This document shows, piece by piece, positions 27,815 through 31,372 of a DNA stretch of 64,000 bases (positions within the stretch are counted from its first letter, which is position 1; the number at the start of each line of letters is the position of its first letter). The DNA comes from Rhodopirellula halodulae. GTDB lineage: Bacteria > Planctomycetota > Planctomycetia > Pirellulales > Pirellulaceae. Made by a program: the position numbers and the translations under genes. The notes under the pieces were generated by a model. That model was not told the origin of the DNA. It saw only the letters and a program-made list of their open reading frames with translations, and did not search any database. The stretch spans positions 1 through 64,000 of the forward strand of contig NZ_JAJKFV010000004.1 of the NCBI RefSeq assembly GCF_020966775.1, read 5' to 3'.

Positions 27815-30800
27815 TTGAAATCGGTGGACCTCCAACAGTACTTCCAAAACGAAACGCCCCCTCGCGACCACTTTGTGTCGGTCCTGCGCCACTGGGTGCA
27901 GGTCCGTCCGCATGCCCCCGCGTTTTCGTTCACGGATGGAGAAGGCACCACGCAAACGTTGTCCTACACGCAGTTGTGGGACGAGGTCCAAGGATTGGCC
28001 GGTTACCTGCAAGGCCGATGCGGCATCCGCGCGGGCGACCGAGTGTTGCTGCTGTACCCGCCTGGTTTGGATTTTGTCATCGGGCTGTTCGCGACACACG
28101 CGGCCGGGGCGATCGCCGTGCCCGCCTACCCGCCACGACGCAACCGCAAAGCCTCGCGAATTCGTTCGATCGTGGTCGACGCCGATGCTCGTTGGGCCCT
28201 GTCCACGCAGTCCGTGGTGGATCAACTCTCCGGCAACGAACTTCACGAGGACCTAATCGGCGTGCAATTGCTGGGCACGGACAACCCCAACAAACGCGAC
28301 GCGGCTCACTGGCGATGCCCCAAACTTCGCAACGAAGCCTTGGGCGTGTTGCAGTACACCTCCGGCTCGACGGGCTCACCCAAAGGCGTGATGCTCACAC
28401 AAGCCAACTTGATCGCCAACAGCGAATTGATCCTGCACGCGTTCGAGCCCGAAGCCACCATCATCGGTGCCTCGTGGTTGCCGACGTACCACGACATGGG
28501 ATTGATCGGTGGTGTGTTGATGCCAATGTTTGTTGGCCGACACAACATTTTGATGAGCCCCATGGCGTTCTTGCAGCGTCCCATTCGCTGGCTGCAAACG
28601 ATCGCCAAGCTGGAAGTCACCATCAGCGGCGGCCCCAACTTTGCCTACCAGTTGTGCGTCGACAAAATTCGCGACGAAGAACTCGAAGGACTCGATCTCT
28701 CGAAGTGGGAAATCGCGTTCAACGGAGCCGAACCGGTTCGCAAATCGACTTTGGACGCATTCACTCGCCGCTTTGAACCGTACGGGTTCCGCCACTCGTC
28801 GCACCTGCCTTGTTACGGCATGGCCGAGACCACATTGATTGTTACCGGTGGACCTCGTTCGCCGCGTCCAATCACGCAGTCATTCGATGGACCAGCCCTG
28901 GACGAAAAGGCCGTTCGACCATCGGTCGAGATGCCAACAACCAGCGATACCGCGACCGACAACAAAACCGACGCTGATTCCGCCAACAACGCGGAAACCT
29001 CCGCTCGCAACTCGCGCGAGTTGGTGGCTTGCGGACAAGTTCTGACGGGCGAAAAGCTGGTCATCGTTGATCCCGACACCCTGCAAACGCTGCCTCCTGA
29101 TGCCATCGGCGAGATTTGGGTTCAGAGTCCCTCGGTCGGCCGCGGCTATTGGCAACGACGCGAACAATCGACCAAGACCTTCACGGCGATGACGGCGGAA
29201 GGCGATGGTCCTTTCCTGCGCACCGGCGATTTGGGGTTTGTCTACGGAGGCCAGCTTTATGTGTCCGGCCGTCTGAAAGACATGATCATCGTTCGCGGTG
29301 TGAATCGTTATCCGCAAGACATCGAGGCCACGGTCGAACGTGCCAGCGACGTTGTCCAAGCGGGCTCGGTCGCGGCTTTTGCGATGAACGCGGACAGCGA
29401 TGAGACTGAAAGCGGTCGCGAACAATTGATCGTTGTTGCCGAAACCGTTCGCAAACGCGACTTGGATTGGGACGAACACCTGCAAGCCATCCGGCGTGCG
29501 GTCACGGAAGAACACGACTTGCCGCCCGACGCGATCTACTTGGTTCGCAACAGTTCCGTGCCCAAAACCAGCAGCGGCAAAATCCAACGGCACGCCTGCT
29601 TGCACGCCGTTCGCGACCAAGAATTGAAAGTGATCGCCCAGTGGGTTCGCGGCGAAGAATCTTCGCTGCACCAAGCCGGTGCGGCCGGCGAAACCATGAT
29701 GAAGGCCGCCGCGGCGGAACTTTCCAGAGGGCAAGATTCCAACACGGACCCGGTCATCTCGGAAGCCATCGTGTCGCATGTTCGAGCCATCGCAGGAGAG
29801 CGAGCCGGCACGATCGATGCGGAAACCAATATTGTTCTTGATCTGGGACTCGATAGTTTGGAACGACTCGAGATTGCACGGAACTTGGAACGCACCTTCG
29901 GAGGACGCTTCCCCGAGCAGGTGCTGGACGAAATCGAAACCATCGGGCAAGTCGCCACGGCGGTCGAACGTTACCTGCCCGCCGGTGCACTCGGACGCGC
30001 CGAACAGTTCCTCGCCGGTCACGATGCCTCTCGCCGCGATGGCGACGAGGACTTGGTCAACGCGACCGCCAACGGATCCGCGACAAACAGCGGCGAAGGC
30101 CCACTGGCCCGCGTCATGCAAACGCCGCAGGTCGAACCGGAAGACGACTTCACTCAGTTCGCTGAATACCGCCGCCTGAAATCAACCATGCGGCAGATGC
30201 AGTTGACCGGAGTTCCCAACCCGTACTTCACCGTTCACGACTGCATCGTGAATGACAAGACGATGGTCGACGGGAAATCGCTGATCAGCTTTGCCAGCTA
30301 CAACTATTTGGGACTTAGCGGTCACCCTGAAGTCTCCCAAGCCGCCGCTGATGCCATCGCGCGTTACGGCACCAGCGTTTCCGCCAGCCGATTGGTCAGC
30401 GGCGAAAAACCAATCCATGGCGAACTTGAAAAGAAAATCGCGAAGTGGATCGGTGTCGACTCCGCGATCACCATGGTCGGCGGTCACGCCACCAACGAAA
30501 CCACCATCGGCCACCTCGTTGGCCCCGGCGACTTGATCGTGCACGACGCGTTGTCCCACAACAGCATCGTGCAGGGGGCACTGCTGTCCGGTGCCAAACG
30601 TCGCCCGTTCCCGCACAACGATTACGAAGCCCTCGACAAAATGTTGACGGCTCTGCGAGGCCAATACCGTCGCACGCTGATCATCATCGAAGGCGTCTAC
30701 AGCATGGACGGTGACTTCGCCGACGTGCCCAAGTTCATCGATGTCAAGAAACGCCATCGGGCGATGCTGATGGTCGACGAAGCCCACAGCTTTGGCACGA

Positions 30801-31372
30801 TGGGTAAGACCGGTCACGGCATGGCGGAACACTTCGGTTTCGATGCTCGTGATGTCGACATCTGGATGGGCACGCTCAGCAAGTCCGCGTCGTCGTGCGG
30901 CGGATACATCGCCGGCAGCGAAGCATTGATCGAACTACTCCGCTACACCGCGCCAGGTTTTGTCTTCAGCGTCGGAATGCCACCCGGGCAAGTCGCCGCG
31001 GCGATTGAATCGCTGAACGTTTTGCAGCGTGAACCCGAACGTGTGCAGCGTCTTCGCGAAAACAGCGAACTGTTCTTGAAGCTCGCCCGCGAAGCCGATT
31101 TGGACACGGGCGACAGCGGCGGAACACCGGTGATTCCCGTGATCACTGGAAACAGCTTGATCGCGTTGCGGCTCAGCAACCGTCTGAAAAAGGACGGCAT
31201 CAACGTGCAGCCGATCCTTTATCCCGCCGTCGACGAATCCGCGGCTCGCCTGCGTTTCTTCGTCACCAGCGATCACACCGAGGAACAGATTCGCTTCACG
31301 GTCGAACGCACCGCGCATCACCTTCATGATCTGTGCGATTCGCCCTCCAGTTCGCTACGCGGCACCGGCTGA
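27815..31372 (+). CDS. Fatty-acyl-AMP ligase / acyl carrier / alpha-oxoamine synthase fusion
   Basis: An 1185-residue three-part enzyme. Residues about 1-600 are a fatty-acyl-AMP ligase: LQYTSGSTGSPKGVML, LPTYHDMGLIGGVL, YGMAETTLIV and GRLKDMIIVRGVNRYPQDIE are FAAL hallmarks. An acyl carrier domain follows at about 645-720, with the phosphopantetheine Ser681 in DLGLDSLERLE. Residues about 800-1180 are a PLP alpha-oxoamine synthase (serine palmitoyltransferase/BioF/KBL family) with DEAHSFG (Asp988, His991) and TLSKSASSCGG (Lys1023 Schiff base). The predicted activity is to adenylate a fatty acid, load it on the carrier and condense it with an amino acid by decarboxylation, giving a long-chain amino-ketone. 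No ATG fits the start; TTG 27815 or GTG 27824 must be used. The amino acid (Ser, Ala or Gly) is not determinable. Confidence 0.93.
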   Translation: MKSVDLQQYFQNETPPRDHFVSVLRHWVQVRPHAPAFSFTDGEGTTQTLSYTQLWDEVQGLAGYLQGRCGIRAGDRVLLLYPPGLDFVIGLFATHAAGAIAVPAYPPRRNRKASRIRSIVVDADARWALSTQSVVDQLSGNELHEDLIGVQLLGTDNPNKRDAAHWRCPKLRNEALGVLQYTSGSTGSPKGVMLTQANLIANSELILHAFEPEATIIGASWLPTYHDMGLIGGVLMPMFVGRHNILMSPMAFLQRPIRWLQTIAKLEVTISGGPNFAYQLCVDKIRDEELEGLDLSKWEIAFNGAEPVRKSTLDAFTRRFEPYGFRHSSHLPCYGMAETTLIVTGGPRSPRPITQSFDGPALDEKAVRPSVEMPTTSDTATDNKTDADSANNAETSARNSRELVACGQVLTGEKLVIVDPDTLQTLPPDAIGEIWVQSPSVGRGYWQRREQSTKTFTAMTAEGDGPFLRTGDLGFVYGGQLYVSGRLKDMIIVRGVNRYPQDIEATVERASDVVQAGSVAAFAMNADSDETESGREQLIVVAETVRKRDLDWDEHLQAIRRAVTEEHDLPPDAIYLVRNSSVPKTSSGKIQRHACLHAVRDQELKVIAQWVRGEESSLHQAGAAGETMMKAAAAELSRGQDSNTDPVISEAIVSHVRAIAGERAGTIDAETNIVLDLGLDSLERLEIARNLERTFGGRFPEQVLDEIETIGQVATAVERYLPAGALGRAEQFLAGHDASRRDGDEDLVNATANGSATNSGEGPLARVMQTPQVEPEDDFTQFAEYRRLKSTMRQMQLTGVPNPYFTVHDCIVNDKTMVDGKSLISFASYNYLGLSGHPEVSQAAADAIARYGTSVSASRLVSGEKPIHGELEKKIAKWIGVDSAITMVGGHATNETTIGHLVGPGDLIVHDALSHNSIVQGALLSGAKRRPFPHNDYEALDKMLTALRGQYRRTLIIIEGVYSMDGDFADVPKFIDVKKRHRAMLMVDEAHSFGTMGKTGHGMAEHFGFDARDVDIWMGTLSKSASSCGGYIAGSEALIELLRYTAPGFVFSVGMPPGQVAAAIESLNVLQREPERVQRLRENSELFLKLAREADLDTGDSGGTPVIPVITGNSLIALRLSNRLKKDGINVQPILYPAVDESAARLRFFVTSDHTEEQIRFTVERTAHHLHDLCDSPSSSLRGTG

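Follow-up and report, generated by a model that had tools for sequence, protein, structure and literature searches.

The window analyzed here, 64,000 nt from Rhodopirellula halodulae (positions 1 to 64,000 of contig NZ_JAJKFV010000004.1, assembly GCF_020966775.1), contains an open reading frame (ORF) at 27815-31372 (+) that is free of internal stop codons and encodes a predicted 1185-aa protein. Pfam matches showed that the protein is a fusion, with AMP-binding (residues 25-349; E = 1.7e-63), PP-binding (651-717; 4.3e-11) and Aminotran_1_2 (823-1164; 1.8e-45) domains in order from the N to the C terminus. An earlier note on this DNA had claimed that a fatty acyl-AMP ligase (FAAL), an acyl carrier protein (ACP) domain and a pyridoxal phosphate (PLP)-dependent condensing enzyme, an alpha-oxoamine synthase (AOS), lie together in this one protein, and the Pfam order and the conservation described below agree with that claim. 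The carrier serine and PLP lysine that it named were also correctly placed, since the motif LGLDSLERL starts at residue 677 and TLSKS at residue 1020, giving Ser681 and Lys1023, respectively. The domain check that it had proposed, by profile HMM and structure prediction, found the three domains in Pfam and, in VIA-align comparisons, matched the FAAL to 7r7e and the AOS to 3a2b. Coordinates are given in Table 1.

Table 1. Features of the fusion gene, neighboring genes in the window and the CerS homolog elsewhere in the genome.
Feature	Coordinates	Strand	Remarks
FAAL-ACP-AOS fusion, whole gene	27815..31372	+	1185 aa; TTG start as listed, alternative GTG at 27824
FAAL domain	27854..29647	+	residues 14-611; Pfam, phmmer, structural match 7r7e
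FAAL-ACP linker	29657..29740	+	residues 615-642; pLDDT < 50
Acyl carrier domain	29765..29965	+	residues 651-717; PF00550
Ser681 codon, predicted phosphopantetheine attachment	29855..29857	+	Ser in 84/84 aligned fusions
ACP-AOS linker	30026..30145	+	residues 738-777; low-confidence run is 738-809
AOS domain	30146..31339	+	residues 778-1175; Pfam, structural match 3a2b
Lys1023 codon, predicted PLP Schiff-base lysine	30881..30883	+	Lys in 83/84 aligned fusions
Flavoprotein, CmlS/geranylgeranyl-reductase-like	26092-27387	-	divergently oriented; matched 4 loci at 26% identity
Neighbor ORF	31808-32422		matched in L003 only
HAD protein	25436-26092		matched in 0 of the 80 loci
CrtI-like protein	37076-38524		matched in 0 of the 80 loci
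CerS/YghO-type N-acyltransferase homolog	G000:C29:795104-796255	-	384 aa; single match in the Rhodopirellula genome

Many homolog matches start at residue 3-4, and the GTG at 27824 (Val4) may therefore be the true start codon instead of the listed TTG. An AlphaFold2 model, made with the window protein and 25 homologs in the alignment, had a mean predicted local distance difference test score (pLDDT) of 76.3 and a predicted template modeling score of 0.51. Its low-confidence runs include residues 615-642 and 738-809, which flank the carrier on both sides; these linkers are probably flexible, so the model does not fix how the domains are arranged relative to one another. No carrier-protein chain occurred among the 50 matches listed by VIA-align, a list that one domain can fill. 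The Rhodopirellula genome possesses two genes of the phosphopantetheinyl transferase (PPTase) family (PF01648 matches; open frames of 264 and 126 aa).

Relatives of the fusion are widespread in the order Pirellulales. The best 80 of 170 confirmed loci from a scan of planctomycete genomes were taken, and the counts of complete spans and of neighbors reported here rest on these. The span from FAAL to AOS was complete in 76 of the 80 loci, which rules out a chance fusion or an assembly error; the other four (L055, L069, L076, L080) end at, or no more than 50 bases from, a contig end. Two copies (L070, L079) were split over two ORFs, and L047 had no clustered ORF. For residue conservation, 84 fusion ORFs were aligned, a set restricted to lengths of 1000-1599 aa and AOS identity > 40% that contains the window protein and its near relatives. 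Besides Ser681 and Lys1023 (Table 1), His991 and Arg1147 were present in 84/84, His915 in 83/84 and Asp988 in 80/84 sequences. The PLP lysine, aspartate, two histidines and substrate arginine of the AOS family are thus all found in the protein, together with the AOS fold. Asp988, which pairs with PLP, is replaced by Asn in four related fusions of genus g10 (L123, L125, L126, L127); genomes of this genus additionally contain frames of ~2570-2586 aa with an ACP-AOS match.

The top structural match of the FAAL domain was the FAAL of a Synechococcus olefin synthase (7r7e; Z 49.7, root-mean-square deviation (rmsd) 2.1, 561 residues aligned, 44% identity), which was solved, according to the structure titles, with palmitoyl- and stearoyl-adenylate. 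A phmmer search with this domain likewise returned 7r7e as its best match (7.6e-145), followed by further FAALs before any coenzyme A (CoA) ligase. By sequence and fold, the activating domain is closer to FAALs than to acyl-CoA synthetases. Kinship within the FAALs was judged from pairwise identities alone, and these do not support orthology to the acyl-ACP synthetase AasR: identity was 30% to E. coli AasR as opposed to 44% to the olefin-synthase FAAL, with a Legionella FAAL-ACP protein, a paralog from the same genome and L156 at 34-39%. A second FAAL-ACP protein, of 795 aa, is encoded in the Rhodopirellula genome at G000:C9:208990-210747 (L153:5583-7970).

The top structural match of the AOS domain was the serine palmitoyltransferase (SPT) of Sphingobacterium multivorum with L-serine (3a2b; Z 51.5, rmsd 1.6, 382 aligned, 32% identity). 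When 48 AOSs were placed in a maximum-likelihood tree, the fusions, the window protein among them, grouped with AOSs linked to polyketide synthases (PKSs) in one branch of 26 rows (100/99); four proteobacterial SPTs (100/100), 2-amino-3-ketobutyrate CoA ligase (KBL), HemA and BioF lay apart from it. The PKS-linked rows comprise two PKS-ACP-AOS fusions of planctomycetes and, encoded beside a PKS, the AOSs of a Pseudomonas plasmid (L116), Rhizobium sullae (L117) and a planctomycete (L154). A divergent paralog (L156) fell just outside it. A second, quick tree included 11 AOSs from CerS-flanked planctomycete loci and dropped L068, L155, L169 and L112. In that tree, 9 of the 11 added AOSs grouped with the SPTs (SH-aLRT, an approximate likelihood ratio test, 92), one (L210) fell near the fusions, and the fusion branch adjoined the SPT branch with moderate support (87). 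L239, which is the same protein as L084, lay on the KBL/BioF/HemA side here and on the SPT side in the 48-AOS tree, and its position is therefore unsettled. Neither tree supports an identification of the fusion AOS as BioF or KBL; besides the fusion, the Rhodopirellula genome encodes one other AOS, which is BioF-like (G000:C13:33415-34455). By its place in the trees, the fusion AOS belongs with the PKS-associated (rkp/sga-type) AOSs and not in the canonical SPT branch.

A connection to ceramide synthesis was found in a Phycisphaerales metagenome-assembled genome (MAG) outside the order (L072), where the fusion ORF overlaps a YghO-like (CerS-like) ORF by 4 bp, with a CerR-like epimerase encoded two ORFs beyond the latter. 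YghO (ECD_02850) and CC_1154 are both listed as 'aca' in PMC9386255, and CC_1154 is described as the N-acyltransferase CerS, needed for dihydroceramide in Caulobacter (PMC11324152). The CerS homolog of the Rhodopirellula genome was 44% identical to the L072 protein (E = 4.3e-112) and 32% identical to E. coli YghO over 378 aa. Co-occurrence was determined in two overlapping samples, one of 20 relatives (own genome included) and one of 294 genomes of the phylum, which together contain 34 genomes of the order. The fusion was present in 30 of the 34, and FAAL and AOS were confirmed in one ORF in all 30, among which the fusions of G007 and G012 are cut by contig ends and the AOS of G273 is divergent (35%). 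A CerS homolog occurred in 30/30 fusion-bearing genomes of the order versus 1/4 without the fusion (Fisher exact p = 6.7e-4, relatedness ignored); G014, G017 and G241 possess neither gene. Across the phylum, 83 of the 294 genomes were CerS-positive, none of them from the same class outside the order. Twenty CerS regions were hand-chosen from these 83 genomes, of which 18, from 17 genomes, lie outside the order. An AOS was found near the CerS homolog in 10 of the 18 (with CerR as well in 7 of the 10), and the best match of these AOSs was an SPT in nine cases and the window's AOS in L210.

On these grounds we consider it reasonably likely that the fusion is a one-protein, CoA-free SPT-like enzyme that would feed ceramide-type lipids in Pirellulales. 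As for the one-protein entry to sphingoid lipids that the earlier note had suggested, the co-occurrence with CerS and the 3a2b match speak for it, whereas the position of the AOS outside the canonical SPT branch and the near-equal structural match to KBL do not.

Several further observations weigh against an SPT-like, ceramide-feeding role. In Z score, 3a2b was tied with the promiscuous thermophilic AOS 7poa (51.1), KBL 1fc4 (51.0) and others, and the curated NCBIfam cut-offs for SPT were missed (NF047600, 312.5 of 640 bits; NF047599, 277.7 of 500; NF047603, 206.3 of 670). By the NCBIfam cut-offs, the fusion AOS scores as none of SPT, BioF, KBL and 5-aminolevulinate synthase (ALAS). One fusion lacks both Lys1023 and His915: in a Pirellulaceae MAG (ALOHA_ZT_40; L068:9983-13483), Thr stands at the PLP lysine and Asp at the stacking histidine, and this AOS is probably inactive, or half of a heterodimer. 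Lys1023 is preceded by Ser1022, and a Ser at this position was found in the four SPTs and in all readable rows of the fusion branch except L025, where it is Gly; planctomycete BioF-like AOSs have it as well. A conserved Ser is reported in PMC3870968 to hydrogen-bond the hydroxyl of serine. We equate this Ser with the residue that precedes the PLP lysine, in which case Ser1022 would be supportive of SPT activity, not diagnostic.

The AOS may instead take Ala, Gly or another amino acid, yielding 1-deoxy-sphingoid or other aminoketone lipids. This would fit the structural scores of KBL, ALAS and BioF, which come near that of SPT, and also the residue after the PLP-stacking His, which is Asn in 78/84 fusions, as in S. 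meliloti HemA, and Ala in the SPT, KBL and BioF rows; substrate handling may therefore differ, and serine is itself an amino acid that we infer. However, the fusion branch lies beside SPT and not beside BioF, KBL or HemA (moderate support), the Ser before the PLP lysine is present, and the PKS-paired AOS PfSgaB is reported in PMC12134224 to favor L-serine almost to the exclusion of Ala and Gly. Use of an amino acid other than serine thus seems unlikely.

The closest non-planctomycete AOSs found were those of L116 (55%) and L117 (52%), which sit in PKS-AOS clusters with short-chain dehydrogenase/reductase (SDR), sulfatase-fold and capsule genes. In the R. sullae cluster, the order is PKS, AOS, SDR, sulfatase-fold protein and Capsule_synth, which we take to be the order of rkpA-GHIJ. 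In the branch test, the clusters of L116 and L117 served as stand-ins for PfSgaB and S. meliloti RkpG; PfSgaB was compared by description and not by sequence, and its membership of the fusion branch would therefore follow from gene pairing. These neighbors raise the question of whether the long-chain base made by the AOS would, rather than being N-acylated, serve as a lipid anchor of a surface polysaccharide, as proposed for rhizobial rkp-1, a region that, according to PMC4881576, has a part in making a specific lipid carrier for K-antigen. We regard this as quite unlikely. The fusion co-occurs with the CerS homolog in the order, and no RkpI-type partner was found in the Rhodopirellula genome (best 7.9e-6), where no genome-wide search for capsule genes was made; an rkp-type pathway was rejected for this genome on the same result. 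The best SgaC/RkpH-type SDR in the genome, at 33% identity among 20 SDR matches, is uninformative. Moreover, when flanks of up to 10 kb, often shorter, were compared around the 80 loci, no neighbor family recurred beyond 24 of them. The three commonest families, by eye a hypothetical envelope protein, a sulfatase-like and an asparagine-synthase-like protein, were found at 24/80, 19/80 and 16/80 loci and were confined to subgroups. Another PKS-AOS-SDR gene order, resembling sgaABC, was observed in a genome of the same class (L154:7160-16001, G249), where no CerS homolog was matched.

The other points against feeding of ceramide-type lipids by the fusion concern the ceramide genes. The fusion and the CerS homolog lie on different contigs in the Rhodopirellula genome. 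G013, which has no fusion, possesses three CerS-type genes, one of them adjoining an AOS of its own that changes position between the two trees. Conversely, G156 (another family, outside the order, 97% complete) has a fusion ORF and no CerS match; this ORF (L155) is cut at the contig start and ends early. No AOS was present in 8 of the 18 CerS regions outside the order. A CerR ortholog was not found in the Rhodopirellula genome, where the L219 CerR as query gave 0 matches at 1e-15; strong CerR matches (8.1e-39 or better) occurred in only 16/30 fusion-bearing genomes of the order, and G014 has a CerR match without fusion or CerS. An epimerase of the Rhodopirellula genome (G000:C29:565362), 43% identical to the epimerase abutting the CerS homolog in G225, is a candidate only. 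PF04339, considered as a ceramide-synthase family, was not found in the genome either; it was dropped as a marker, as the literature names the aca/CerS gene instead.

Shared ancestry within one order confounds the association between fusion and CerS, and with the G156 exception and the existence of FAAL-ACP and PKS-ACP-AOS relatives this would suit a starter module of a secondary-metabolite pathway, the CerS link being a phylogenetic coincidence. Yet the neighbor counts given above mean that no stable biosynthetic cluster accompanies the fusion, which occurs in 30 of the 34 sampled genomes of the order, and the L072 overlap lies outside that order. A starter-module role is, in our estimation, highly unlikely.

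If the fusion is indeed an SPT-like enzyme, each chemical step of its route can be drawn from family logic on the basis of the observed domains, residues, branch and co-occurrence. A PPTase would arm Ser681. The FAAL would then convert a free fatty acid, probably C16-C18, to acyl-AMP and load it onto the carrier, which would swing to the AOS. There, the AOS would join the acyl chain to PLP-bound L-serine, the most likely amino acid, in a decarboxylative condensation that yields a 3-ketosphinganine, loses CO2 and frees the carrier. The separately encoded CerS homolog would N-acylate this product and a separate reductase would reduce the ketone, the two steps following in the sequence that has been proposed for Caulobacter (PMC11087976). 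The complete CoA-free route from a fatty acid that the earlier note envisaged would accordingly be contained in the protein as far as the long-chain aminoketone, by family logic, while phosphopantetheinylation, N-acylation and ketone reduction are separate.

More tentatively, a planctomycete lineage may have replaced the stand-alone SPT with a three-domain, substrate-channeling SPT, composed of a PKS-type FAAL, a carrier and an rkp/sga-type AOS, for ceramide-type membrane lipids. This would be a second evolutionary solution for SPT that uses carrier-bound, not CoA-bound, acyl chains; sphingolipid production starting from a single protein would be common to Pirellulales, and the sister PKS-ACP-AOS fusion and PKS-AOS-SDR operon of related planctomycetes would be variants in which the chain is synthesized and no free fatty acid is activated. 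Such producers could escape surveys that rely on the canonical SPT branch, since the fusion AOS falls outside it. In PMC11334938, SPT homologs outside the SPT clade are considered unlikely to take part in sphingolipid biosynthesis, and 138 Planctomycetota MAGs are assigned SPT-like proteins by membership of a clade around known SPTs; some hits are noted there to belong to longer proteins. Should the fusion branch fall outside that clade, counts of sphingolipid producers in metagenomes could change.

The architecture itself is already in print and is therefore not new. Proteins termed A-CP-PLP2, with the same domain layout, were catalogued in 2013 from Blastopirellula marina (A3ZWL3) and Microscilla marina (A1ZVW4) in Table 2 of PMC3870968, where SPT is named as the closest enzyme of the group. 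A3ZWL3, which comes from the same order and was compared by description, is probably an ortholog of the fusion. Its entry there is classed as NRPS/PKS-like (nonribosomal peptide synthetase/PKS) and listed without specificity, cluster type or product, and the account of the group connects it neither with FAALs nor with sphingolipid pathways. The strings 'oxoamine', 'PLP' and 'planctomyc' are absent from the main text of a review of FAALs (PMC11837247), and no paper linking the FAAL-ACP-AOS architecture to sphingolipids was found in the literature searched, most subscription journals being outside its coverage. What is new is the order-level co-occurrence of the fusion with a CerS/YghO-type N-acyltransferase, together with the L072 overlap.

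Among characterized systems, the Rhodobacterial AasR-AcpR-SPT trio (Caulobacter, E. coli BL21; PMC9386255) combines the same acyl-ACP synthetase, dedicated ACP and SPT activities that are predicted for the fusion and likewise has a CerS/aca partner gene, and acyl-ACP is reported there to be preferred to CoA. The earlier note was right that these activities reside in separate proteins there; its name 'AcsR' for the synthetase should read AasR, as in PMC9386255. The likeness does not extend to the FAAL, which is nearer the olefin-synthase FAAL than AasR, or to the SPTs of the trio, which lie on another branch; the fusion is therefore an analog of the trio, not the trio fused. PfSgaAB of Pseudomonas fluorescens MYb115 and the rkpA-G clusters have, like the fusion, an AOS of the PKS-associated kind, and their plasmid representatives L116 and L117 share its branch. 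In PfSgaAB, however, an iterative type I PKS builds the chain, the AOS is discrete and an SDR is in the cluster, whereas a FAAL would activate the chain in the fusion; the products of the PfSgaAB cluster are reported to be sphinganines and phosphoglycerol sphingolipids (PMC12134224). BioWF of Corynebacterium amycolatum (PMC9544090) is likewise a natural fusion of an acyl-activating domain and an AOS, but it converts pimeloyl-CoA to 8-amino-7-oxononanoate and is described without a carrier domain or FAAL.

The window's own neighbors of the fusion (Table 1) were kept in no more than 4 of the 80 loci, and a conserved operon partner was ruled out, as the top neighbor family reaches only 24/80. Two further kinds of fusion were observed in planctomycete genomes that also have the main one. 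G265 encodes a second, more divergent FAAL-ACP-AOS protein (L156:6151-9459; AOS 43%). Three genomes of the same family as Rhodopirellula (G148, G253, G207) encode a 2567-aa KS-AT-DH-ER-KR-ACP-AOS fusion (L150:5019-12722, L151, L152), with a PPTase gene upstream (Pfam, L150).

Related genes were also observed on plasmids. An AOS on Legionella lytica plasmid pLlyPCM2298_1 (L118:8863-13734), which groups with a Bacteroidota AOS, adjoins genes for a FAAL-ACP-phosphosulfolactate synthase fusion and for a 2-phosphosulfolactate phosphatase, suggesting a possible capnine/sulfonolipid route in Legionella. Finally, sets of FAAL, ACP and SPT-like genes (L119, L168 and matches H62, H63, H66-H68 and H70) are carried on plasmids of Pseudomonas, Diaphorobacter (conjugative IncP), Rahnella, E. 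coli and Klebsiella.

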